Positions 9,484 through 31,490 of a DNA stretch of 32,828 nucleotides are shown piece after piece. Source of the stretch: Alphaproteobacteria bacterium (GTDB lineage Bacteria > Pseudomonadota > Alphaproteobacteria > Micropepsales > Micropepsaceae); contig JAEUML010000359.1 of the NCBI GenBank assembly GCA_016792785.1, positions 1 through 32,828 on the forward strand. The letters are read 5' to 3'. How positions within the stretch are numbered: the stretch's first letter is position 1; each line of letters begins with the position of its first letter. Both the position numbers and the translations under genes were made by a program. The notes beneath the pieces were generated by a model. The model did not search any database, was not told the DNA's origin, and saw only the letters and a list, made by a program, of their open reading frames with translations.

Positions 9484-10896
9484 GTGATCCCGATTCCTCA
9501 CTTCAAGGGCAAGACGGTCGCGGTGTTCGGGCTCGCGCGCTCCGGCATCTCGGCCGCGCGCGCGTTGATGGCGGGCGGGGCGAAGGTCATCGGCTGGGAC
9601 GACAAGGCGGGGGCTTGCGAAGCAGCAGCCAAAGCTGGCGTCGAGATCGGCGATCTCGCCCGCGTGGATTGGCACGGGATCGCCGCGCTCGTGCTGTCGC
9701 CGGGCGTGCCACTGACACATCCGAAGCCGCATCCCTTTGTCGTCGCCGCGCAAGCTGCGCGCAGCGAGGTCATCGGCGACGTGGAGCTGTTCTTCCGCGC
9801 TGTCAGGGGCGAGGACGACCAGATCCATCCGAAGATCGTCTGCGTCACCGGTACGAACGGCAAGTCGACAACGACGGCGTTGATTGGGCATCTGCTCGCG
9901 AGGCTCGGCTTCGACGTGGAGGTCGGCGGCAATATCGGCAAGCCGGTGCTCGAACTCGCGCCGCCGACGCCGCGGCGCGCCTATGTGCTCGAACTTTCGT
10001 CGTTCCAAATCGACTTGACGCCATCGGTTAAGCCGGATGTAGCGGTGCTGCTCAACGTCACGCCCGATCATCTCGACCGGCACGGGACGATCGAGAACTA
10101 TGCGGCGGTGAAGGCCAACATCTTCCGCCATCAGGGGCGCGGCGACGTCGCGGTGGTCGGCGTCGACGACACCTATTCATCGGAGATTTGCACGCGCGTT
10201 TCGGCGCGCGGTGTTTCGGTGACGCCGGTGTCGGTCGGCAAGGTGCTCGGACGCGGCATCTTCGTGCTCGACGGCAAGCTCTATGACGCGACGGGGGCGA
10301 CGTCGCGCGAGGTGAAGGATTTGCGCGGGCTCTCGCGTCTGCCCGGCGCGCACAATTGGCAGAACGCGGCGATGGCCTATGCGGCGGTGCGGCCGCTGGT
10401 CAAAGACCCCGGCGAGATCGCGAACGTCATGGGTTCGTTTCCGGGGCTTGAGCACCGAATCGAAACCGTGGGTCACATCGGGCGCGTGCGTTTCGTCAAC
10501 GATTCCAAGGCGACGAATGCGGATGCGGCGGCGCGCGCGCTCGCTTGTTTCAACGACATCTATTGGATCGCAGGCGGCAAGGCGAAGGCGGGTGGCATCG
10601 AAAGCCTGGGCGAGTACTTCCCGCGGATCACCCGCGCCTACCTGATCGGCGATGCGAGCGAGGCGTTCGCGGCGACGCTTGGGGGGCAGGTCGCGACCGT
10701 CAAGGCGGGTACGCTCGAAGTCGCGATGCGCGCGGCCGCGAAGGAGGCGCTGGAGGCTTCGGGCGATCCGGTCGTGCTGCTGTCGCCGGCCTGCGCGTCG
10801 TTCGATCAGTTCCGCGACTTCGAACATCGCGGCGCGGAGTTCAAGCGCATCTTCAAACTGATCGCCGATGAGGCGCATCTGAAAGGGGCGGCCTAG
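9484..10896 (+). CDS. murD: UDP-MurNAc-L-alanine:D-glutamate ligase MurD
   Basis: A 470-residue Mur ligase that adds D-glutamate to UDP-MurNAc-L-Ala. The N-terminal Rossmann-like UDP-binding region (VAVFGLARSGISAARAL) is followed by the P-loop VTGTNGKSTTTAL (GTNGKST at residues 123-129) and the C-terminal Mur ligase domain with NDSKATNADAAARAL and the LLSPACASFDQF motif typical of MurD. The start is GTG at 9484, seven bases after mraY; no strong Shine-Dalgarno sequence is seen, which suggests coupling to mraY. ftsW begins at the very next base after the stop. Confidence 0.97.
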   Translation: MIPIPHFKGKTVAVFGLARSGISAARALMAGGAKVIGWDDKAGACEAAAKAGVEIGDLARVDWHGIAALVLSPGVPLTHPKPHPFVVAAQAARSEVIGDVELFFRAVRGEDDQIHPKIVCVTGTNGKSTTTALIGHLLARLGFDVEVGGNIGKPVLELAPPTPRRAYVLELSSFQIDLTPSVKPDVAVLLNVTPDHLDRHGTIENYAAVKANIFRHQGRGDVAVVGVDDTYSSEICTRVSARGVSVTPVSVGKVLGRGIFVLDGKLYDATGATSREVKDLRGLSRLPGAHNWQNAAMAYAAVRPLVKDPGEIANVMGSFPGLEHRIETVGHIGRVRFVNDSKATNADAAARALACFNDIYWIAGGKAKAGGIESLGEYFPRITRAYLIGDASEAFAATLGGQVATVKAGTLEVAMRAAAKEALEASGDPVVLLSPACASFDQFRDFEHRGAEFKRIFKLIADEAHLKGAA

Positions 10897-18895: not shown

Positions 18896-20461
18896 ATGGC
18901 CATCAACCTGACGGCGCCGGACTTTACGGAACTCAAGCCCCGCATCCTCGTGTTCGGCGTGGGCGGCGCGGGCGGCAACGCCGTCAACAATATGGTCGCC
19001 TCGAAACTCGAAGGCGTCGAATTCCTGGTGGCGAACACCGACGCCCAGGCGCTCGTCCATTCGAAAGCCGAACACCGGCTGCAACTCGGTTCCGAACTCA
19101 CGCAAGGCTTGGGCGCAGGCTCGCGTCCCGACGTCGGCGAAGCGGCGGCCGAAGAAAGCGCCGACGACATCAAGCGCGCGCTCGAATCCAGCCACATGGT
19201 CTTCATCACCGCCGGCATGGGCGGCGGCACCGGCACGGGTGCGGCACCCGTCATCGCCAAGCTCGCGCGCGAGATGGGCGTGCTGACCGTGGGCGTCGTG
19301 ACGAAGCCGTTTTCGTTCGAAGGCCAGCGCCGCATGCGCATCGCGGAAGAGGGGATCGACAAGCTCAAAGGTTTCGTCGACACGCTGATCGTCATCCCGA
19401 ACCAGAATTTGTTCCGTATCGCCAACGAAAAGACGACCTTCGCCAAGGCCTTCGAGCAGGCGGACGAAGTGCTCTACGCGGGCGTGCGTGGGGTCACCGA
19501 TCTGATGGTGATGCCGGGTCTTATCAATCTCGACTTCGCCGACGTGCGCACCGTCATGTCCGAAATGGGCACGGCGATGATGGGCATGGGCGAAGCGGAA
19601 GGCGAGCGGCGCGCGATCGAGGCGGCAGAGGCCGCGATCTCGAACCCGCTGCTCGACGTGTCGTCGATGAAGGGGGCGAAGGGCGTGCTCATCAACATCA
19701 CCGGCGGCATGGACCTCACGCTGTACGAAGTGGACGAGGCGGCGAACAAGATCCGCCAAGAGGTCGATCCGGACGCGAACATCATCGTGGGCTCGACGTT
19801 CGACGAACGGCTGAACGGGCGCATGCGCGTGTCGGTCGTCGCGACCGGTATCGCGACCGAGGTGAAGAGCCAATCGTCGCCTGTGCGCACGTCGGCGTCG
19901 GTCGACGTGAACCGGCGTTCGTCGTCTTCCGCGGTTTCATCGTCCGTTTCACAACCGGTTGCGGTGAGCGCGATCGCGTCGCCCGCGATTTCGCATCCGG
20001 TGCATTCGATGCAGAGCGAGATCGTGCAATCGGGGCTTGCAAGCGAGGACGAGGACGAAATCCTGACGCACGACATCGACCAGAGCCGCGCGCTGCCTTC
20101 GGTCGAGAGCCATGTGTTCGACCGTACGATCATCCAATCCGCCGGGCCGGAGCCGCGCTCGCGCGAGCCGCAACGGTCGCGGGCCTTGCCGCCGCAGTTG
20201 CAACCGCAGCAGATGGAGAAGAGGACAGGCTTCTCGATGTTCGGCATCACGATCGGTGTCGCGCAGCCGAAGAAATCACCGCTGCACCGCCCGAGCGCGT
20301 CGCCTTCATCGATGCGGCTTACGCCAGAACCTTCATCGCCTTTCGCCGCCGAAACGCCGCGCCAGATCAGTCCGCAAAAGCCGGCCAAAACGAGCGAGGG
20401 CCTGAATGCCGTGGACGACGAACTCGAGATTCCGGCGTTCCTGCGTCGCCAGGTGAACTAA
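18896..20461 (+). CDS. ftsZ: Cell division GTPase FtsZ
   Basis: A 521-residue tubulin homologue that forms the Z ring. The N-terminal nucleotide-binding region reads [13 protein letters not shown] (from residue 21); the tubulin signature GGGTGTG lies at 109-115, and the T7 catalytic loop NLDFADV at 211-217 supplies D213 and D216. The GTPase fold ends near residue 320 and is followed by a ~180-residue low-complexity linker rich in Ser, Val, Gln and Pro. The C-terminal peptide [11 protein letters not shown] is the FtsA/partner-binding tail in its alphaproteobacterial form. The length is close to other alphaproteobacterial FtsZ proteins with long linkers. The gene that follows is not lpxC, as it commonly is in this class. 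Confidence 0.98.
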
Positions 20462-20477
20462 CGAGCCTGTCGGCACC

Positions 20478-20509
20478 CATTACGCGTCACGAACGAAGGC
20501 GCGTGATGC
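20478..20509 (+). terminator. Weak hairpin after ftsZ, possible terminator
   Basis: CATTACGCG (20478-20486) can pair with CGCGTGATG (20500-20508) with one G-T pair. An alternative register pairs GCGTCACG (20484-20491) with CGTGATGC (20502-20509). Only a short ATTTG follows, not a T-run, so intrinsic termination is doubtful. Its position 17 bp past the ftsZ stop fits a 3' end hairpin. Confidence 0.3.
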
Positions 20510-20544
20510 AGATTTGTCCCTACAATTGATAGTCGGACGCGCGC

Positions 20545-20560
20545 GGATTAACGCTAATCC
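20545..20560. promoter_or_regulatory. Inverted repeat GGATTA-ACGC-TAATCC upstream of tpsB, possible operator
   Basis: A perfect 6-bp inverted repeat with a 4-bp spacer, about 200 bp before the tpsB start and inside the likely promoter region. A TTGATA at 20526-20531 could act as a -35 element, in which case the repeat would cover the -10 area. A dimeric regulator site is an inference from symmetry and position only. Confidence 0.3.
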
Positions 20561-20666
20561 ACGTGTTCAGCTTAATTGTTATGTGTCGTTTTTGCAGCGT
20601 TCGATGCCCTCTCTGCGTGCTCAACCAGGGATAGATTGAAGGTCCAGGCGAACTCTGTGCGATATT

Positions 20667-20744
20667 TTCCCCTGGGGAAGGCAAGAGAGCTTTGGGGGCT
20701 CTCAAGCCTGGCGGCAGTTGGGAGCCGCCTACAACTGGGGGATG
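20667..20744 (+). promoter_or_regulatory. Structured 5' leader of tpsB (three stem-loops next to the ribosome-binding site)
   Basis: Three perfect stems follow each other. The first is TTCCCC-T-GGGGAA (20667-20679). The second is GGC-AA-GAGAGC, loop TTTGGGG, GCTCTC-AA-GCC (20680-20708), a nine-pair stem with a symmetric AA/AA internal loop. The third is GGCGGC, loop AGTTGGGA, GCCGCC (20710-20729). The loop bases AGTTG (20716-20720) are complementary to CAACT at 20732-20736, directly before the GGGGGAT ribosome-binding site. The pairings allow either a tight pseudoknot or two exclusive folds. I do not recognise a known riboswitch family; canonical c-di-GMP, TPP, cobalamin and SAM core motifs are absent. 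Confidence 0.5.
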
Positions 20745-20746
20745 AG

Positions 20747-22513
20747 ATGGGGGGCTCGCGTGCCGGCCGTGGCGTAACGGCTTGGTCTCGTTGCGAACTT
20801 GTACCTCGCAAGACAGTTCGGACTCGCGCGGCGATTTGGGGGATCGTCGTTGCGGGTCTGACTGTTTTTGCAGCGCCGGCGCTGGCACAAACTGCGCCCG
20901 GCCAGATTGAGCGCGAATTTGAAGGCAAGAACAAAACGTCGAAGACGCCTTCGACGATCACGGTGCCTGCGCTCGACCGACAGGGACCGCCGGCGAATGC
21001 GGAACAGATTCGTTTCGTGCTCAAGGGCGTCGACATCGACGGCAATAGTGTCCTCTCGGACGCACAACTCGGACAGCCTTTCGCCTCGTTGATCGGCAGC
21101 GAAGTATCGCTCGCCCAGATGTTCGCGGCGTCGAACGACATCACGCGCATGTATGTGAAGGCCGGCTATGCGCTGTCGCTCGCGTTCGTGCCGGCGCAAG
21201 AAGTGAAAGACGGACTCGTTCGCGTCCGCGTCATCGAAGGCTATATCGGCGACGTCGAGTTCCAGGATTCGCGTTCCTTCCACAGCAAGTTGTGGAACGG
21301 CTTCGCGCGGCGCCTGATGGCGTCGCGGCCACTGAAGACGAAGGATTTGGAGCGCTATCTTCTGCTTGCCAACGATCTCGCCGGTGTCGAGGTCAAGAGC
21401 GTGTTTGAGCGCATGGACGGCGATCCGGGCGCAACCAAACTCGTGATGATGATCGAGCGTAAGCTGGTCGATGCCGGGATCGAGGTAAACAATCGCGGTT
21501 CGAAGGCAGTTGGGCCGTACCGTGTGCAGGTGCAGGCTGCGCTGAACAATCTGCTCGGCGCAGAGGAGCGCCTTGCACTTTTTGGCGTGCGGGTGCCGGA
21601 CGGCGAAGAGCTCGCGTATCTCGCAGGACGCTTCGAGTTACCGCTGACGAGCGATGGGCTTGGCATGAGCTTCGACGTGTCGCGGTCGCACTCGAAAGTC
21701 GGCACGCCCGTCATGGTGCTGATCGACTATCAGACCGACGGCTGGGTCGGCGATCTTTCGTTCACCTATCCCTGGATACGCTCGCGCGCACAGAACCTCT
21801 ATTTCTCGCTCGGCCTGACGTACAAAGATTTGACCGCCGACATTCTGGCGACGGACTATACGCACGACACGATTACGAAGATCGTGGCCGGCGCCGATTA
21901 CGACACGCATGACCGGTGGGGCGGGTTGCTGCAAGCCGCCGCCTCGCTGCATGTCGGTCTCGACGTGTTCGACGCGACGCAATCGAACGATCCCAAGGCG
22001 AGCCGTCTCGGCGCGTCGGGCGAGTTCATCCGGCTGGAAGCGTATGCCTCGCGTCTTCAGTCTCTTCAACGTTGGCCGTTCCTGCAGCTCTACGGCGAGT
22101 TGTCGGCGCAGGTGGCCGACGGCTCGCTGCTTGTTTCGGAACAATGCGGCTATGGCGGCGGTCATATCGGGCGGGCGTTCGATCCGTTCGAGATTTCCGG
22201 CGACCACTGCATCAAGGGCTTGGCCGAAGTCCGTTACGACCTGCCGATGAACGGTTGGGCGAACGATTGGGCAATCAACATGCTGCAATTCTATGGGCTC
22301 GCCGACTTCGGCTACGTGCTGAAGAGCGGTGACCTGCTGCCGCCGGACAAGCGCAGCGATGCGGGGGCGTCGCTCGGGCTTGGCATGCGCTGGCGCGCGC
22401 TCGACCATGTGTCGGGACTTGTTGAGGTCGTGCAACCGGTCGGTCTCGGCGTCGCATTCGAGGATGGTGAGAAGAACGCGCGCGTCTTCTTCGGATTGTC
22501 GGTGGATTATTGA
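20747..22513 (+). CDS. Two-partner secretion outer-membrane transporter (TpsB, ShlB/FhaC family)
   Basis: A 588-residue protein that should export the adjacent exoprotein across the outer membrane. The N terminus is long and basic, then hydrophobic (AAIWGIVVAGLTVFAAPALAQ), with predicted signal cleavage near residue 48. Residues ~84-165 (IRFVLKGVDIDGNSVLSDAQ ... VRVIEGYIGDVEF) form the first POTRA, and a second ShlB-type POTRA follows (YLLLANDLAGVEVKSVF). The remainder is a beta-barrel rich in alternating aromatic strands. GRAFDPFEISGDHC near residue 475 aligns with the conserved loop-6 region, though the usual R-G-[FY] reads R-A-F. The protein ends in an aromatic residue (SVDY), as barrels do. 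Start: ATG 20747 behind GGGGGAT; the open frame extends upstream to 20576 but through the structured leader. Confidence 0.9.
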   Translation: MGGSRAGRGVTAWSRCELVPRKTVRTRAAIWGIVVAGLTVFAAPALAQTAPGQIEREFEGKNKTSKTPSTITVPALDRQGPPANAEQIRFVLKGVDIDGNSVLSDAQLGQPFASLIGSEVSLAQMFAASNDITRMYVKAGYALSLAFVPAQEVKDGLVRVRVIEGYIGDVEFQDSRSFHSKLWNGFARRLMASRPLKTKDLERYLLLANDLAGVEVKSVFERMDGDPGATKLVMMIERKLVDAGIEVNNRGSKAVGPYRVQVQAALNNLLGAEERLALFGVRVPDGEELAYLAGRFELPLTSDGLGMSFDVSRSHSKVGTPVMVLIDYQTDGWVGDLSFTYPWIRSRAQNLYFSLGLTYKDLTADILATDYTHDTITKIVAGADYDTHDRWGGLLQAAASLHVGLDVFDATQSNDPKASRLGASGEFIRLEAYASRLQSLQRWPFLQLYGELSAQVADGSLLVSEQCGYGGGHIGRAFDPFEISGDHCIKGLAEVRYDLPMNGWANDWAINMLQFYGLADFGYVLKSGDLLPPDKRSDAGASLGLGMRWRALDHVSGLVEVVQPVGLGVAFEDGEKNARVFFGLSVDY

Positions 22514-22523
22514 AGTGATGGGG

Positions 22524-22535
22524 CGCCCGCGGGCG
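22524..22535 (+). promoter_or_regulatory. GC-rich palindrome in the tpsB-tpsA gap
   Basis: CGCCCGCGGGCG is a perfect 12-bp palindrome beginning 11 bp after the tpsB stop. As RNA it could form a four-pair GC stem with a CGCG loop, possibly tuning transcription or mRNA decay between transporter and exoprotein. Function is a guess. Confidence 0.25.
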
Positions 22536-22578
22536 GGGAATTCGCGGTGCGTAACGTGAGACTGTTGGGGGGAATGCC

Positions 22579-25500
22579 ATGAAGCGCTTGGCGCTCGGCG
22601 GGCAACATGCGTCGCTTGCTCGCAAATTGACGGGACGGAGCCTCAAGCTTGCGCTGTTTGCAGGCGCGAGCGCGATCACGCTGGCCTCATTCGCGCTGGC
22701 CGGACCCGAAGGCGGCACGGTCGTCGACGGCGCGGCCGTGATTTCCAAGCCCACGACGACAACGACCCAAATCGACCAGTCCACGAACAAAGCCATCATC
22801 GACTGGAAGAGCTTCAACGTCGGCAAGGACGAACAAGCGATCTTCAATCAGCCGAATTCGGCGTCGGTCACGCTGAACCGCATCTTCGACGCCGATCCCT
22901 CAATCATCGCGGGATTGGTCAGCGCCAACGGGCACCTCATCCTCATCAATGCCAACGGCATGGTGTTCGAGAACGGCGCGACCGTGAACACCGCCGGGCT
23001 GATCGCGACAACTGCCGACATCTCGAATAGCGACTTCATGGCGGGCAACTACCGCTTTGAAACTCCTGGGTCGGCGAACGCTTCGATCGTCAACAACGGC
23101 CTGATCACTGCGGAAGAGGGTGGCGTCGTCGCCTTTGTGGCGCCTTCGGTGAGGAATTCGGGCGTCATCCAGGCCAAGCTCGGCAAGGTGGCGCTCGGCG
23201 CCGGCCACACATTCGTGCTCGACCTCTACGGCGACAATTTGATCTCGTTCCCCGTGTCGGCGGAGATCGCAACGCAACTCGTCGGCCAGGAGGGCAAGGC
23301 GCTGATCGAGGCGGGCGGTACGATCGAAGCGGGCTCGGTGCAACTGACGGCACGTGCGGCGCGCGGTCTCATCGACAACGTCATCAACGTCGACGGCGAG
23401 ATCATCGCTTCCGGCGTCAAGCAGACCGGCGGCTCCACGTTCCTGACCGGCGGCACGTTCGATCCGTTGCGCCACGACACGCACGCTGTCGCGCGCATCG
23501 ACGATGCAGCCGGCGGTGGCGGCAGCGGCGCACTCGCCGGCTATGGCGGGCGCATCGTCATCGATGGCGGGGCGAATAACGTCAACATCGCAGGCTCGCT
23601 CAGCGCTTCAGGCGCGACGGGCGGCTCGATCTCCGTCAGCGGCAACAACGTGACGGCGGGCGGCTCGATCGCGGCCAACGGGGCTACGGGCGCGGGTGGC
23701 AGCGTGTCGATCGACGCACGGAATTTTGCCGCCTTGACCGGCACCATATCGGCAAACGGTGCGGTGGGCGGCAGCGTCAACGTCAACGCGAGCAATTTGC
23801 TCACCGCCGGCGCGATCTCAGCCGACGGTTCGTCCGGCATGGGCGGTGCGATTACGCTTGCCGCGCGCGAGCGGCAGATCGCGACCAGCGCGACGCAGGT
23901 CTCAGCCTCGGGCGCGGCGGGCGGCGGCACGATCAGCGCGAGCGGTGGGACGGGGCTCTTCACCTCCGGCAACTACAAGGCGACTTCGTCTTCGGGTGCG
24001 GGCGGCAGCGTTGCGATCGGCGGCGCGGACATCAAGATGATCGACGCAAAAGTCGACGCATCGGGCGCGACGGCGGGAGGATCGATCGCGGTCGGCTTCA
24101 CGGGTGCGGGCGACTCCCGCTTGATCAACGCAGAGAAGATTTTGGTGTCGCCGACCTCGACGTTCAGCGCCGATGCGACGGCGAACGGCGACGGCGGGAG
24201 CGTCGTCTTCTGGTCGAATCTCTCGACCGACTTCATGGGTTCGATGACGGCGAAGGGCGGGGCGCTCGGCGGCGACGGCGGGTTCCTCGAAGTGTCGTCA
24301 AAGGGCGAGATCGGGTTCTGGGGCTTGGGCGACGCGTCGGCGGCGAATGGTGCCTCGGGTCAGCTGTTGCTCGACCCGAAGAACATCGTCGTGTCGTCCA
24401 CGGGCGGCGTGATGCCGAGCTATGAGCTTATCGATCCGGGTTCGGGCTCGACCACGTTCGGCGGCAATGTCGCAGCTCTTGCCAACGGCAACACGGTTGT
24501 CACCTCGACAGGCGACGATACGGTCGCAAGCAATTCGGGCGCCGTTTTCCTCTATAATACGACGACGGGCGCATTGGTCAGCATGATCACCGGCTCGCGC
24601 GCGGACGACGCGATCGGCTCGGGTGGGATCACGGTTCTGTCCAGCGGCAATTTCGTGTTCGCGAGTTCGAACTGGGACAACGCGGCAGCCGCCACAAATG
24701 CGGGCGCGGTTACGTTCGGCAACGGGACGACAGGCGTCTCTGGTGTCGTGTCGGCTGCGAATTCGCTGGTCGGCGCAGCGTCGAACATGAACGTGGGTTC
24801 GGGCGGCGTGACGGCGCTCTCGAACGGAAGTTATGTTGTAAGTTCGCCGAACTGGGACAGTGCCAACAACAATGTCGGCGCAGTGACCTGGGGCAACGGT
24901 ACGACAGGCATCTTCGGTACGGTGTCGGCGGCGAATTCGCTTGTCGGGTCGGCGACGGACGATCAGGTCGGCTCGGGCGGCATCACGGCGCTTTCGAACG
25001 GCAATTACGTCGTGCGCAGCCTGTTGTGGAACAACGGTGCGACGACAGATGCAGGCGCGGTGACTTGGGGCAACGGACTCGGCGGCACTGTGGGGGCGGT
25101 GTCGGCGGCGAACTCGCTGGTAGGCTCGGCCAACAACGATCAGATCGGTTCCAACGGCGTCACGGCGCTGACCAACGGCAACTACGTCGTGGCGTCGTCG
25201 TCGTGGAACAACGGTGCGACGACTGACGCTGGCGCAGTAACGTGGGGCAACGGCCTTGGCGGCACGGTCGGCACGCTCTCGGCGGCAAATTCACTTGTCG
25301 GCACCACAACGAACAACAATGTGGGTTCGGGCGGGGTCGTGGCGCTGTCGAACGGCAACTTTGTCGCGCTCAGCCCGAACTGGGACGGCGCGAACCAAAA
25401 CGTCGGCGCGGTCACGTGGGGCAACGGCCTCGGCGGTACCGTGGGCGGCATTTCGGCGGCGAACTCGCTCGTCGGCTCAAACACGAACGATAATATCGGC

Positions 25501-28500
25501 AGCGCCGGGGTGCGCGCGCTCACAAACGGCAACTACGTGGTCGCCTCGCCGAACTGGAACAATGGTGCGGTCAGCGACGCCGGTGCGGCAACGTGGGGCA
25601 ACGGGCTCGGCGGCACGGTCGGTACGCTTTCGAGTGCGAACTCACTTGTCGGCACGGCGACGAACAATAACGTTGGCTCCGGCGGTATTGTCGCGCTCTC
25701 GAACGGCAACTACGCTGTCGTCAGCCCTGGCTGGGACAACGGTGGCACGAACAACGTTGGCGCGGTCACTTGGGGCAATGGTACAACCGGTACCTCCGGC
25801 AATGTGGGCGCAGGCAATTCGACCACCGGCTCGACAAACGACGACCAAGTCGGCTCGGGCGGCGTCTTCGCGCTGACGAACGGCAACTATGTCATTGCCT
25901 CGCCGCTGTGGAACAACGGCGGCACCGGTGACGCCGGCGCTGCCACGTGGCGCAGCGGAACTGCGGCCTCTTCAGGCACCGTGTCGGCCGCGAATTCGCT
26001 CGTCGGAACGCGGAGCAACGACAATATCGGCTCGGGCGGCATCACGGCGCTGACCAACGGCAACTATGTGGTCGTCAGCCCGAACTGGGATTCCGGCGCG
26101 ATCTTCACCTCGAACCAAGGCGCGGTCACGTGGGGCAACGGCGCCACCGGCACCAGCGGCAATGTGACGAACGCGAATTCGCTCGTCGGCGCCAGCTCCG
26201 GCGATCAGGCGGGCTCAGGCGGTGTCATTGCGCTCTCGAACGGCGACTACGTTGTTTCGACACCTGGTTGGAACAACGGCTTCACGTCCGACGTCGGCGC
26301 GATCACGCTGGGCACCGGCGCAGGTGGCACGGTCGGATCTATTGCCACGGGCAACTCTATGATCGGCCCGTCGAGCGGCGCGCAGCTGAGCGCCGCGGGC
26401 GTGACCTCAACGAATGAAATCCTGGCGCGTTCGACGAGCCAGGGCACCGTGCTTGTCGGATTGACGGATCCCAACCAGCTGACGTTCGCGCGCGCGCAAG
26501 GACAAACGCTGACCGTCAATCCGGCATTTTTGACCCGTACGCTGAACACCGGAACGGCGGTGACGCTGCAAGCGTCGAACGACCTTACGGTGTCGTCCGA
26601 CATCATCGCCAACAACCCGACCGGCAACGGCGGTGCGTTGACGCTGCAGGCGGGCCGCAGCGTGCTCATCAACGCCGACATCACGACCGACAACGGCAAC
26701 CTAACGATCTTTGCCAACGATCTGCTCGCCTCGGGCGTGATCAACGCGCAGCGTGATCCCGGTTCGGCGGTGATCACAATGGGCGCTGGCGCCGACATCA
26801 ACGCTGGTACCGGCGCTGTTCGCCTTGCGATCCTTTCGGGGGCGGGCAAGACGAACACGGCTTCGGGAGATCTCACGCTGCGCAACGTGACGGCCGGCTC
26901 GATCCTGGCCGAAAATCTCGGGCCTTCGAACGGCAACACCGTGCTCGCCTCGGGTCAGCTCAACGCGAGCGGCGCGGGAACGCCGCTGGTGCTTGCGGCG
27001 CAGGGCGGCAACTTCATCAACAACGCCGGCGCGGCGGCGTTGCAGGCGCCGAACGGGCGCTGGATCGTCTATTCGCAGTCGCCTACGGCGAACACGCTTG
27101 GCGGCATCACGGGTAGCTCGCCCTACTACAACACACCGTACAATCCGGCGAACCCGACGGGCTTGGCCGCGACGGGCAACCGTTTCGCCTACACGATCGC
27201 ACCCACTCTGACGGTGACGCCGAATAACGCATCGCGCGAATACGGCAACGCGAATCCGGCGTTCACGTTTGGGGTCACGGGGCTGCTTGCCGGCGACACG
27301 CTTGCCGGGGCGGTTCAGGGCGCGCCGAACCTCAGTTCGCTCGCGGACGCGAACAGCGCCGCCGGAGGCTCCTATGCGATCAATGCGTCGCTTGGTACGC
27401 TCGCTTCGGACTACAACTACGGCTTTGCCTTTGGCGCGGGGCAGTTGACGATCACGCCAGCGCAGTTGTTCTACCTCGCCAACAGCGCGAGCCGCATCTA
27501 CGGCGACGCGAATCCCGCGCTGACCGGCACCGTCACGGGATTGAAGAACGGCGAATTGATCGAGACTGTCGCAACGGGCACTGCGACATTCACCAGCACC
27601 GCCGACGCCACGTCGAATGTCGGCAACTATGCGATCACGGGCAGCGGGCTTAGCATCATCAACTCGAACTACGTGCTGGCGCAGGCGGCGGCGAACGCGA
27701 CGGCGCTCTCGGTGACGCCCGCAACGTTGTCCTATGTCGCGAACGGGGCGTCGCGCGAGTACGGCGACGCGAATCCGACGCTCACCGGTACGGTCACCGG
27801 GTTCAAGAACAGTGACACGTTGGCGACGGCGACGACGGGTGCGCTGACGTTCACCTCGTCAGCAGACGTGTTCTCGAACGTCGGCAGCTACGCGGTCGTC
27901 GGCTCGGGTTTGAGCGCAAACAATGGCAACTATGTGTTCGTGCAGGATCCGACGAACGCGACGGCCCTTACGATCAACCCGGCCTTGCTGACCTATGTCG
28001 CGGATACGGCCTCTCGCATTTACGGCGATGCGAATCCCGCATTTTCGGGAACGGTGGCAGGCTTCAAGAACGGCGACACGCAGGGCAGCGCGACAACCGG
28101 CGCGATCACGTTCACTTCGACGGCCGATGAGACGACGAATGTCGGCACGTATGCGATCAACGGTTCGGGTCTGACCGCCAACAGCGGCAACTACACGTTC
28201 GGTCAGGCGGCATCGAACGCGACGGCGCTCAGCATCACTCCGGCGCAGCTGACCTTCTTGGCGAATGCGGCGAGCCGCGAGTACGGCGACCCGAATGGCG
28301 TGCTCACGGGTTCGGTGCTTGGCCTCAAGAACGGCGACACGATCGATCAGGTTGCTAGCGGTATTCTGACATTCGGCGGGCTGGCCGATGAGGAGTCGCC
28401 GGTCGGAACTTACGGCATCGTTGGCGGCGGCATCACGGTCACGAGCGGCAACTACCTGCCGACGTTCCTGCAGGACCCGTCGAACGCGACGGCGCTGACT

Positions 28501-30093
28501 GTTGTTCCGGCGCAGCTCTATTACCTCGCCGAGGTCGTCACGACGGTCTATGGCGAGATCGACCTCAACGACATCGGCGGCGAGCTCTTCGGGCTCAAGA
28601 ACAGCGATAATCCGGAAGACGTGGGTCTCGGAACGCCGACGTTCTTCAGCAGCATCACGACGACGTCGGGCGCGGGCGTCTACGCGGTCAACGGCACCGG
28701 CTTCGTGGTCACGAACCCTAACTACGCCGTCACCGTACTGCAGGCCGCGTCGAACGCGACCGCGTTCACGGTTAACCCGGCGCAGCTGTTCTACTCGGCC
28801 GATTCTGACGAGCGCGAGTACGGCGAAGCGAATCCGTTGTTCACGGGCGCCATCGACGGGCTGGTGAATGGCGACACGCTCGAGTCGGTCGTGTCCGGTA
28901 CGCTCGCGTTCACTTCAGCGGCGACGGCAACGTCGAATGTCGGGCTTTATGCCATCGATGGCTCGGGCTTGACGGTCATTAGCCCGAACTACCAGCTGAC
29001 GATCCTACAGGACGCGGGCAACGCGACGGCGTTCGAGATCACGCCAGCTACGCTCACCTACCTGGCGGATGCTGCATCGCGCGTGTACGGCGACGCGAAT
29101 CCAACCTTCACGGGGCAGCTCCTCGGCTTGAAGAACGGCGAGACGATCGAGCAGGTGAGCGACGGCGACATGACGTTCACGAGTCCGGCGACGGCAACCT
29201 CGAACGTCGGGACCTATGGGATCTTCGGTGGCGGGCTTACGATCACGAGCGGCAACTACGTCACCGTGATCGAACAAGATTCGCAGAACGACGACGCCCT
29301 GACGATCACGCCGGCTCAGCTGATCTACTCGGCCACACCGATTACGCGGGTCTATGGGCAGCCGAACGGACTGGTCACGGGCACCATTCTTGGTCTCAAG
29401 AACGGCGAAACGCTGGCGTCGGTGACCGAAGGCACGCTGTTGTGGACGCCGGACGCCGATGAAACCAGCGACGTTGGTGTCTATGCGATCGAAGGTAGTG
29501 GCCTTGCGGTCGTGAGCGAGAACTACGAGCAAACCATTGAACAGGCGATCGAAAACAACGCGGCGCTGACCATTACGCCAGCGCAGCTGACCTATTTGGC
29601 CGATCCGAAATTCCGACTCTATGGCTTCCCGAATCCGCCGCTGACCGGCCAAGTGTTGGGCGTCACGAACGGAGACGATATCTCCGAGATTACAACCGGA
29701 ACGCTCGGCTTCTCGACCACCGCCGGTCCCTTCACGCTCGGCGGTCTCTACCCGATCACGGGCGGCGGCTTGACGGTTGTGAGCAACAACTATATCGCCA
29801 CGATCTTGCAGGACCCGAGCAACGCGACGGCGCTCGTCATTCAGGACATCCCCGCGAACGCCGGACAGGCGCTTGGCGAAGGTGGTAAGGGCGACGAGGG
29901 CGCGGTCGATGAGGAGCAGAACACCATGACCTCGCGCGAAAACGAACTTGGCATCGTGGGGGTAGGCCCGGTCAGCGACGACATGGCAGACGGCAAGAAC
30001 GACCAGCAGGGCGATCAGCTCTGCGTGTTGGGTGCGCGCGAAGCGGCCAACGCGCCGGGTTGCGTCGCGCGACAGCAAGCCCAAGGCCGCTGA
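22579..30093 (+). CDS. Giant two-partner secretion exoprotein (TpsA) with DUF5650-like and MBG repeats
   Basis: A 2504-residue predicted secreted or surface adhesin. Order: signal peptide (~1-41, ending SFALA); TPS/haemagglutination-activity domain (~42-300) with the secretion motif NANGMVFENGATVNTAGLIA from residue 124; Gly/Ser/Ala-rich beta-helix-like segment (~310-600) ending LLLDPKNIVVS; ten ~59-residue repeats (680-1270); a second helix-like segment (~1290-1540); ten MBG-type Ig-like repeats (1543-~2425); and an acidic, hydrophilic tail. Cys2482 and Cys2495 are the only cysteines I find. ATG 22579 follows GGGGGGA. The signal-peptide region and TPS domain match the upstream TpsB partner. 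The ligand is unknown; adhesion or biofilm function is inferred from the family. Confidence 0.92.
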   Translation: MKRLALGGQHASLARKLTGRSLKLALFAGASAITLASFALAGPEGGTVVDGAAVISKPTTTTTQIDQSTNKAIIDWKSFNVGKDEQAIFNQPNSASVTLNRIFDADPSIIAGLVSANGHLILINANGMVFENGATVNTAGLIATTADISNSDFMAGNYRFETPGSANASIVNNGLITAEEGGVVAFVAPSVRNSGVIQAKLGKVALGAGHTFVLDLYGDNLISFPVSAEIATQLVGQEGKALIEAGGTIEAGSVQLTARAARGLIDNVINVDGEIIASGVKQTGGSTFLTGGTFDPLRHDTHAVARIDDAAGGGGSGALAGYGGRIVIDGGANNVNIAGSLSASGATGGSISVSGNNVTAGGSIAANGATGAGGSVSIDARNFAALTGTISANGAVGGSVNVNASNLLTAGAISADGSSGMGGAITLAARERQIATSATQVSASGAAGGGTISASGGTGLFTSGNYKATSSSGAGGSVAIGGADIKMIDAKVDASGATAGGSIAVGFTGAGDSRLINAEKILVSPTSTFSADATANGDGGSVVFWSNLSTDFMGSMTAKGGALGGDGGFLEVSSKGEIGFWGLGDASAANGASGQLLLDPKNIVVSSTGGVMPSYELIDPGSGSTTFGGNVAALANGNTVVTSTGDDTVASNSGAVFLYNTTTGALVSMITGSRADDAIGSGGITVLSSGNFVFASSNWDNAAAATNAGAVTFGNGTTGVSGVVSAANSLVGAASNMNVGSGGVTALSNGSYVVSSPNWDSANNNVGAVTWGNGTTGIFGTVSAANSLVGSATDDQVGSGGITALSNGNYVVRSLLWNNGATTDAGAVTWGNGLGGTVGAVSAANSLVGSANNDQIGSNGVTALTNGNYVVASSSWNNGATTDAGAVTWGNGLGGTVGTLSAANSLVGTTTNNNVGSGGVVALSNGNFVALSPNWDGANQNVGAVTWGNGLGGTVGGISAANSLVGSNTNDNIGSAGVRALTNGNYVVASPNWNNGAVSDAGAATWGNGLGGTVGTLSSANSLVGTATNNNVGSGGIVALSNGNYAVVSPGWDNGGTNNVGAVTWGNGTTGTSGNVGAGNSTTGSTNDDQVGSGGVFALTNGNYVIASPLWNNGGTGDAGAATWRSGTAASSGTVSAANSLVGTRSNDNIGSGGITALTNGNYVVVSPNWDSGAIFTSNQGAVTWGNGATGTSGNVTNANSLVGASSGDQAGSGGVIALSNGDYVVSTPGWNNGFTSDVGAITLGTGAGGTVGSIATGNSMIGPSSGAQLSAAGVTSTNEILARSTSQGTVLVGLTDPNQLTFARAQGQTLTVNPAFLTRTLNTGTAVTLQASNDLTVSSDIIANNPTGNGGALTLQAGRSVLINADITTDNGNLTIFANDLLASGVINAQRDPGSAVITMGAGADINAGTGAVRLAILSGAGKTNTASGDLTLRNVTAGSILAENLGPSNGNTVLASGQLNASGAGTPLVLAAQGGNFINNAGAAALQAPNGRWIVYSQSPTANTLGGITGSSPYYNTPYNPANPTGLAATGNRFAYTIAPTLTVTPNNASREYGNANPAFTFGVTGLLAGDTLAGAVQGAPNLSSLADANSAAGGSYAINASLGTLASDYNYGFAFGAGQLTITPAQLFYLANSASRIYGDANPALTGTVTGLKNGELIETVATGTATFTSTADATSNVGNYAITGSGLSIINSNYVLAQAAANATALSVTPATLSYVANGASREYGDANPTLTGTVTGFKNSDTLATATTGALTFTSSADVFSNVGSYAVVGSGLSANNGNYVFVQDPTNATALTINPALLTYVADTASRIYGDANPAFSGTVAGFKNGDTQGSATTGAITFTSTADETTNVGTYAINGSGLTANSGNYTFGQAASNATALSITPAQLTFLANAASREYGDPNGVLTGSVLGLKNGDTIDQVASGILTFGGLADEESPVGTYGIVGGGITVTSGNYLPTFLQDPSNATALTVVPAQLYYLAEVVTTVYGEIDLNDIGGELFGLKNSDNPEDVGLGTPTFFSSITTTSGAGVYAVNGTGFVVTNPNYAVTVLQAASNATAFTVNPAQLFYSADSDEREYGEANPLFTGAIDGLVNGDTLESVVSGTLAFTSAATATSNVGLYAIDGSGLTVISPNYQLTILQDAGNATAFEITPATLTYLADAASRVYGDANPTFTGQLLGLKNGETIEQVSDGDMTFTSPATATSNVGTYGIFGGGLTITSGNYVTVIEQDSQNDDALTITPAQLIYSATPITRVYGQPNGLVTGTILGLKNGETLASVTEGTLLWTPDADETSDVGVYAIEGSGLAVVSENYEQTIEQAIENNAALTITPAQLTYLADPKFRLYGFPNPPLTGQVLGVTNGDDISEITTGTLGFSTTAGPFTLGGLYPITGGGLTVVSNNYIATILQDPSNATALVIQDIPANAGQALGEGGKGDEGAVDEEQNTMTSRENELGIVGVGPVSDDMADGKNDQQGDQLCVLGAREAANAPGCVARQQAQGR
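24616..26388 (+). repeat. Ten tandem ~177-bp coding repeats in tpsA (59-residue units)
   Basis: Each unit begins GSGG[IV]-x-ALSNGNYVV, continues with a W-[ND] element, then GAVTWGNG-x-x-G and closes with SAANSLVG. Ten full units span residues 680-1270, with degenerate copies before (VAALANGNTVV) and after (SAAGVTSTNEIL). The pattern resembles the repeats I recall as DUF5650 in bacterial surface proteins. At DNA level even protein-identical stretches differ at many third codon positions, so the array is old and selected rather than freshly expanded. Confidence 0.85.
27202..29853 (+). repeat. Ten tandem MBG-type Ig-like repeats in tpsA
   Basis: Ten units of roughly 85-95 residues, each with the signature [YF]-x-A-x-x-x-x-R-x-YGDANP-x-[LF]-x-G, then a K-N-G-[DE] turn, a T-F-T-S strand, SNVGxYAI and SGNY. 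This is the pattern of MBG/YDG 'mostly bacterial Ig-like' domains common in long adhesins. Unit 6 (YYLAEVVTTVYGEIDLND) is the most divergent, lacking the R-x-YGDANP core. The array would form an extended stalk. Confidence 0.85.
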
Positions 30094-30098
30094 CGCCG

Positions 30099-30692
30099 AT
30101 GGCGCGGCGGGGAAGTCTTGCGGTTGTCGGCGGACTCGCAGTTTTGGCCGGCGTTGGATTTCTCGTGTGGAATCTGATGGGTTCGTCTCCGTCTGGGACG
30201 GGCCCCTCGATGGCGTCGTTCGGGTTCGACGCGTGGCTCGTGCGCTGCCAGGCGGTGGGCGGCAAGACAGGCTGCGGCATGTCGCAGCGCATTCTCGACA
30301 AACAGTCCGGCCAGCCGGTGCTGCAGCTGCATCTCGGACGTGCGGCGAAGGGCGATGGGCATCAGCTCGTCGCGGTGCTGCCGCTCGGCGTGACGGTGCC
30401 GCCCGGCATCGTGATCCAGATCGGCGAGAGCAAACGCAACGTCGCGTTCACGCAGTGCCTGCCGGGCGGGTGTGTGGCGCCGCTGGCGGTCGACGCAGCC
30501 TATGTCGACGTCTTGACGTCGGGCGGGGAAGGCCGGGTCGGCGTCGTCGACCGGCGCGGACAGACTGTCGCGGTGCCGTTCTCGCTCAAAGGATTCGCCG
30601 GCGCGTTCGCGAAGATGAATGAGCACGGTGGCATCGGCGGAAACGATGCAACTTCCTGGATGAGTTTTTGGAACTCTTCGGAAACGAAGTGA
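30099..30692 (+). CDS. IalB-family protein, membrane-anchored copy
   Basis: A 197-residue protein of the invasion-associated locus B family. Residues ~6-28 form an uncleaved-looking membrane helix (LAVVGGLAVLAGVGFLVWNL), followed by the IalB domain starting FGFDAWLVRC. Four cysteines lie at 50, 59, 120 and 125 (C-x8-C and C-x4-C), probably forming disulfides in the periplasm. VLPLGVTVPPGIVIQI and SLKGFAGAF are family motifs. The start is ATG 30099, six bases after the exoprotein stop, so it is very likely co-transcribed with tpsB-tpsA; a TTG start at 30060 would overlap the tpsA end. The family is named from Bartonella but is widespread in free-living Alphaproteobacteria, so virulence should not be assumed. 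Confidence 0.85.
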   Translation: MARRGSLAVVGGLAVLAGVGFLVWNLMGSSPSGTGPSMASFGFDAWLVRCQAVGGKTGCGMSQRILDKQSGQPVLQLHLGRAAKGDGHQLVAVLPLGVTVPPGIVIQIGESKRNVAFTQCLPGGCVAPLAVDAAYVDVLTSGGEGRVGVVDRRGQTVAVPFSLKGFAGAFAKMNEHGGIGGNDATSWMSFWNSSETK

Positions 30693-30727
30693 CAACCTAC
30701 AACTGACCAAAAAAGTTTGCGATTTTC

Positions 30728-31333
30728 ATGAAACGATTTCTGCCGCTTCTGATTGTAACGGGGACACTTTGGGTGCCCTCCGTCCAGGCTCAACCGGCCG
30801 CGCCGGCAAAGCCCGCAGGTCCGCCGCCGGTCACGACGAAGACGTTCGACGATTGGCTTGTGCGCTGTCCGACGGCGCCGCAGCCGATGCCGTGCGACGC
30901 GGTGCAGCTTCTGCTTGAGCCCAAGTCGAAGCAGCGCGTGCTCAGCCTTTCGGTCGCCTATGACCAGACGAAGGCGGCGCACGTCGTGCGAATCATCCTG
31001 CCGCTCGGCGTGTGGCTGCCGAATGGGGTGGCGGTCCAGGTCGGCGCAACGAAGATCGAGAAGGTCGCCATCAGACGGTGCGAACCGTTCGGTTGCGTGA
31101 TCGAGGGTCTTCTCGATCCGAAGCTGCGCGAGGCGATGCGCAAGGGTGGGGACGCCAAGATCGTCGTCTTCGACCAGGCCAAGAAACCGCTCGACCTCAA
31201 GTTTTCGCTCAAGGGCTACGACGCGGCCGAAGACCACATGACGGCGGAAACGAAGAAAGTGAAGCTGCCCGCGGCGCCAGCCCCCGCCACTCCAACAGCT
31301 CCCGCCCCGGCGAAACCCGCAACGCCGAATTGA
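30728..31333 (+). CDS. IalB-family protein, secreted copy
   Basis: A 201-residue paralogue of the preceding gene with a cleavable signal peptide (MKRFLPLLIVTGTLWVPSVQA, cleavage near residue 21) and a short Pro/Ala linker. The IalB domain starts FDDWLVRC and has cysteines at 47, 56, 118 and 123, the same C-x8-C and C-x4-C spacing as its neighbour. ILPLGVWLPNGVAVQVG and FSLKGYDAAE match family motifs. The C-terminal tail is Ala/Pro-rich. A 35-bp gap separates it from the first copy; no clear Shine-Dalgarno sequence is present before ATG 30728. Function beyond the family name is unknown. Confidence 0.88.
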   Translation: MKRFLPLLIVTGTLWVPSVQAQPAAPAKPAGPPPVTTKTFDDWLVRCPTAPQPMPCDAVQLLLEPKSKQRVLSLSVAYDQTKAAHVVRIILPLGVWLPNGVAVQVGATKIEKVAIRRCEPFGCVIEGLLDPKLREAMRKGGDAKIVVFDQAKKPLDLKFSLKGYDAAEDHMTAETKKVKLPAAPAPATPTAPAPAKPATPN

Positions 31334-31490
31334 TCGCAGGTTGGGTGAGGGCGAGGGCGCTCTCCTCGAACCTTACAATTCGGTCAGATTCTCCCGGTTT
31401 CCACCACTTGCGCGGTCTGGCGGGTTGGCGCGGGTTACGGTAAAGAGACGGGGCCTTTTTGTCCGCTCCCTCTCTCACGCTCCGGTACCC

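Follow-up and report, generated by a model that had tools for sequence, protein, structure and literature searches.

A clade-restricted structured leader upstream of the tpsBA two-partner secretion genes in an uncultured alphaproteobacterial lineage

In an alphaproteobacterial genome, the gap between ftsZ and a two-partner secretion operon contains several hairpins that end just before the tpsB start codon, which raises the question of whether this leader controls tpsB and, if so, by what route. The stretch of DNA analysed (32,828 nt; hereafter, the window) is one contig (C286) of G000, an alphaproteobacterial assembly in 383 contigs. It carries rnpB (1264-1642, Rfam) as well as mraZ, rsmH, murB, ftsQ and ftsZ, with the intervening ORFs in the usual dcw order. 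Following ftsZ are tpsB, tpsA, an IalB-like gene and bamD; ftsZ and tpsB are 285 nt apart, and the structured leader is found in this interval. The two secretion genes are:

20747-22513, forward strand: tpsB, outer-membrane TPS transporter (Pfam POTRA_2 1e-17, ShlB 9e-15; start codon ATG at 20747)
22579-30093, forward strand: tpsA, the secreted partner, with RBS CTGTTGGGGGGAATGCC (Pfam TPS 8e-36, MBG_2 and DUF5650 repeats)

The POTRA_2 and ShlB matches confirm the gene that the earlier note had placed behind a structured leader, and relatives retain the structure, with covariation (see below). TpsA (2504 aa) is an adhesin-like repeat protein in which the TPS domain is followed by ten DUF5650 and nine MBG_2 matches. 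The lpxC gene lies near ftsZ in many Alphaproteobacteria; here the ftsZ-bamD interval (20461-31341) is without it, and LpxC was not found in the 93% complete G000 assembly, being present in 9 of the 11 genus genomes.

Orthologues of tpsB occur in G009 (80% aa), G010 (70%) and G004, whose contig begins inside the gene, all on contigs from Alphaproteobacteria MAGs, and paralogues at 49-51% are found in G000 and G009. Five leaders were compared, i.e., those of the window, the G009 and G010 orthologues (G009a and G010a) and the G000 and G009 paralogues, of which the three orthologous ones can be aligned. The tpsB frame is open in the window up to a GTG at 20657, but an N-terminal coding extension from this codon was rejected: G009a carries TAG in this frame, so the leader is not coding. 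Its elements are:

20667-20679, forward strand: stem 1, inverted repeat TTCCC-CTG-GGGAA, in the same place in 5/5 leaders with variable spacing; probably straddles the transcription start
20679-20709, forward strand: stem 2 (P2), AGGC / AA.AA internal loop / GAGAGCU, loop TTGGG (20692-20696); pair probability ~0.99, four pairs changed on both sides among the three orthologues
20710-20729, forward strand: stem 3 (P3), GGCGGC-(AGTTGGGA)-GCCGCC; paired in every cell but one, with changes on one side only
20732-20736, forward strand: CAACT, complement of the stem 3 loop AGTTG (20716-20720) and its proposed pseudoknot partner; pairing uncompensated in relatives, where two positions break
20737-20741, forward strand: GGGGG, the G-run RBS; the run is G5-G7 in 5/5 tpsB leaders and likewise before those downstream tpsA genes that can be read

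All three stems described in the earlier note as perfect and back to back are thus present, but stem 2 is imperfect, with two A.A mismatches. The C-tract of stem 1 (20669-20672) has two alternative partners, GGGG 20674-20677 and the RBS. In the MFE fold of 20640-20760, UCCCCUGG (20668-20675) pairs with CUGGGGGA (20735-20742) around P2 and P3, forming a three-way junction. The strongest competitor for the RBS is therefore the 5' C-tract, paired with the G-run 20737-20741, and not loop 3, a pairing that the earlier note had missed. When the window sequence is folded over a longer stretch, pairing with the first codons can take the place of P3.

These stems are more than chance. The 52-nt block of P2 and P3 (20679-20730) ranks within the top 15 of 5044 window 52-mers for stability (top 0.3%), the insert that separates GGGGAA from the RBS has a folding z of ~ -3.4, and the folding energy of 20667-20744 is -41.8 vs -30.9 for shuffles; the longer stretch 20640-20760 is mildly unusual (z -1.56). 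As a background, 0.7% of 60-mers have z below -3, and 20 further leaders from the genus that share the RBS motif have a mean z of -0.47, with 1/20 below -3. Among the TPS leaders, improbably stable inserts are found in four of the five despite differing sequences, two of them of quite different shape (window -3.4, G009a -3.0, G000 paralogue -3.7, G009 paralogue -3.4), the fifth being G010a (-0.2).

In line with these results, when P1/P2/P3 are placed on a sequence-only MAFFT alignment of the three orthologues, 92% of cells are paired and five pairs are changed on both sides (four of them in stem 2), against 0-1 in controls slid by 1-3 columns, a comparison that rests on three sequences and in which one control is biased towards a structure taken from one of the three. 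RNAalifold run on the same orthologues independently returns the same three-way junction. The covariation in homologous leaders that the earlier note had proposed to look for is thus seen, and, judged by it, P2/P3 are a genuine structure maintained by evolution in the clade. The compensatory changes in P2, together with the improbable folds in 4/5 leaders, argue for selection on structure.

The same comparison speaks to the switch that the earlier note had proposed, in which loop 3 and CAACT would form a pseudoknot or one of two exclusive folds. The complementarity that prompted this idea, AGTTG (20716-20720) to CAACT (20732-20736) beside GGGGG (20737-20741), is indeed in the sequence and is perfect (5/5) in the window; it falls to 3/5 in G009 and 4/5 (one G-U) in G010, without double changes, and has no counterpart in the paralogues. 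When P1 is swapped for this pairing, the resulting helix shows 0 double changes and broken positions in both orthologues. The ends of the leader are conserved, from the promoter side through GGGGAA and from CTGGGGG(A) through the start codon, whereas the middle varies in sequence and length and is the fastest-changing part, the opposite of what is expected of an aptamer. Rfam gives no match to the leader at gathering threshold, and at a relaxed threshold only a chance match to mir-306 (E 3.3); this agrees with the earlier note's impression that no known riboswitch core is present and that the RNA family may be undescribed, and it speaks against the c-di-GMP or other ligand-binding core that the note had wished to see checked. 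The leader resembles c-di-GMP-I (GEMM) riboswitches in being a multi-hairpin leader of an adhesin-type operon and in a superficial GGCAA..AAGCC, but differs in lacking a match to the family at either threshold. A ligand riboswitch or an H-type pseudoknot on AGTTG and CAACT is thus very improbable, for all its five perfect pairs in the window and four possible pairs in G010, and the leader is best read as a clade-restricted structured 5' UTR. Control by CsrA/RsmA was also considered and rejected, as csrA (PF02599) was not found in the 11 genus genomes, several of them incomplete, in a search that detected its positive controls.

The leader is confined to one genus. A scan of genome contigs brought up the G009 and G010 records and otherwise only distant TpsBs, whose leaders show no C-tract/G-tract arrangement and mostly unremarkable folds, and a covariance model of the leader matched only its three training members across the 11 genus genomes.

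How much of this structure reaches the mRNA depends on the transcription start, for which the upstream region offers the following elements:

20571-20592, forward strand: CTTAATTGTTATGTGTCGTTT, a conserved element and possible activator site, present in G009a and G010a and in similar form in the G000 paralogue
20620-20641, forward strand: CTCAACC-N7-GATTGAA(G), a dyad that overlaps a poor -35 (TTGAAG, 20636-20641); exact genus matches only upstream of tpsB genes (G000, G009 twice, G010)
20658-20666, forward strand: putative extended -10 element TGCGATATT, identical in the three orthologues

Since neither a sigma-70 consensus pair nor a terminator was found upstream of tpsB, the -10 assignment is a putative one. 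Transcription prefers to start at a purine 7-9 nt past the -10 element, and further downstream if the discriminator is pyrimidine-rich (PMC5730371, PMC2613000). From these rules and the conserved promoter anatomy, we infer that tpsB transcription starts near G20674 (range 20672-20675). A start downstream of 20730, which the earlier note regarded as fatal to its proposal, is therefore not predicted, yet most of stem 1 would be lost: with a start at G20674, the C-tract and the 5' arm of stem 1 would go untranscribed and the RBS is predicted to be open. The upstream module resembles that of G010 from ~20564 onward. In that genome tpsB has a DUF559 gene and not ftsZ as its neighbour, yet 20564-20800 is conserved, which argues that the promoter belongs to tpsBA and not to ftsZ. 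The dyad (20620-20640), ~43 nt upstream of the probable start, resembles a dedicated activator site; a wider regulon defined by it was rejected, the only further matches being two weaker, mutually identical ones (G001, G003) upstream of an unrelated ORF.

Each of the five tpsB leaders has a run of five to seven Gs shortly before the ATG, as does every tpsA gene that could be read, namely those of the window, G009a, G004 and the two paralogous operons. The pattern TTGGGGG-N4-7-ATG occurs at 27 sites in G000 and 30 in G009, against 0 and 5 for the reversed pattern, an enrichment that marks it as a genuine RBS variant of the genus. RBSs of this type (e.g., window 22565-22581) lie upstream of TonB-receptor-like and other exported proteins; the enrichment for envelope or exported genes reaches only p = 0.07. 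Folding the leader alone from the G-tract gives an RBS that is mostly unpaired in all five cases (0.64-0.95); when coding sequence is added, the paralogues keep theirs open in part only (0.34-0.76). Once the C-tract is included, leader-only folds mostly hide the RBS in all five (unpaired 0.00-0.33), and for the window its unpaired probability in the leader-only fold is 0.01, 0.20, 0.40, 0.65 and 0.94 for starts at 20669 to 20673, respectively. Because the RBS is predicted to be open without the C-tract and hidden with it, the start position decides between an open leader and one closed in cis.

The leader most likely sets the translation or stability of the tpsBA mRNA, as judged from modelled folds and their conservation, and control of adhesin secretion through it is plausible. 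Our tentative preference, with less than even confidence, is for an open leader that is acted on in trans. The tpsBA operon would be transcribed from a promoter of its own, with a short structured 5' UTR in which P2 and P3 lie between the putative mRNA 5' end (GGGGAA, ~20674) and the G-run RBS. The predicted hairpins would form constitutively, shielding the mRNA 5' end and leaving the RBS exposed, and a C-rich or anti-Shine-Dalgarno sRNA may lower tpsB translation by pairing with the RBS, perhaps also with the G-rich loop 3; the candidate is mmgR/alphaR8 (RF00519), the one located. This reading draws together the stable folds of 4/5 TPS leaders vs 1/20 other leaders, the covariation of P2, a leader module that travels with the operon, an RBS that is open in leader-only folds from the G-tract and belongs to a real G-run type, and the presence of RF00519 in the genome. 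It fits less well with the G010 insert (z -0.2) and the partly open RBS of the paralogues, and it depends on three alignable leaders, on a putative start and on an sRNA pairing that tracks G-richness.

Control in cis comes next, as a possible but unlikely mechanism. If the mRNA began at the C-tract or before it, UCCCC (20668-20672) would pair with GGGGGA of the RBS (20737-20742). Together with P2 and P3 this would close the three-way junction and hide the RBS, which opening to the local stem 1 would free. The RNAalifold consensus is exactly this junction, with an outer pair that changes from U-A to C-G, and both the hidden RBS of all five leader-only folds with the C-tract and the energy of 20667-20744 relative to shuffles agree with it. 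However, the preferred start at G20674 leaves the C-tract in promoter DNA, the pairing falls to about half in the window with more coding sequence and is weak in G010 and in the G000 paralogue, and any G-run RBS pairs with a C-tract. A further elaboration, in which the choice of start site reads nucleotide pools, starts in the C-tract closing the RBS and starts in the G-tract leaving it open, so that adhesin secretion would be coupled to CTP/GTP, is improbable. Its model is the start-site-dependent RBS hairpin in the pyrC and pyrD leaders of enteric bacteria. Like these, tpsB has C and then G at the start, and a few more 5' nucleotides hide its RBS in silico; unlike them, it is not a pyrimidine gene, and the start needed (20671 or earlier) lies <=5 nt from the putative -10. 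Also unlikely, and ranked behind closure in cis, is a passive origin: the hairpins would be by-products, either promoter-proximal structures or relics, that regulate nothing beyond mRNA stability, the C-tract and G-tract being a GC-rich discriminator and initial transcribed sequence. The free divergence of the hairpin sequences, the loss of most stability in G010 and the restriction of the leader to one genus would suit such an origin, which has to contend with the compensatory changes of P2 and with improbable folds in 4/5 leaders, including two of quite different shape.

In both G000 and G009, the sRNA invoked by the favoured trans-acting model scores above its gathering threshold and is located near FGase:

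L117 2876-2955, reverse strand (G000): mmgR/alphaR8 (RF00519), 53.5 bits, intact UUUCCUCCCU core
L118 740-818, forward strand (G009): mmgR/alphaR8 (RF00519), 53.2 bits, intact UUUCCUCCCU core

In Caulobacter, the alphaR8 sRNA SisA represses its targets via an anti-SD 10-mer (PMC12559287). The case of tpsB resembles that of the mmgR/alphaR8 sRNAs (SisA-D in Caulobacter) in that G000 carries such an sRNA with the anti-SD core UUUCCUCCCU and the G-rich RBS and loop are target-like; it differs in that the link is a predicted one, with pairing partly of G-U type and partly a composition effect. The RF00519 core pairs with the TPS leaders better than with 93-99.8% of windows (top 0.15-6.6%), a ranking confounded by G content, and it pairs as well with mraZ (-19.4); the strength of this pairing is largely due to the G-richness of the leaders. 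Post-transcriptional control of two-partner secretion is seemingly little described in Alphaproteobacteria. If the model holds, a fold kept despite sequence change and a G-run RBS common to tens of genes, including those of exported proteins, would point to an sRNA-controlled set of surface proteins in an uncultured lineage.

A second parallel is provided by the G-rich leaders controlled by GsrN in Caulobacter, such as that of katG, where predicted GsrN target sites include GUUGGGGGG and UCAGUUGGGG (PMC5869019). The G-tract at the putative 5' end of the tpsB mRNA and its UUGGGG motifs are like GsrN sites, but no GsrN-like sRNA was found near the GSR loci searched in the genus by a scan for C-rich tracts, the only look-alike being in another genus of the family. 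In that genome (G014), near nepR (L082, ~10699-10890), an EcfG-type promoter-like sequence is followed by the C-rich segment CCCCAGCCCC, which lies between GAGCGGAC/GTCCGCTC arms and T-runs and is a candidate GsrN-like sRNA.
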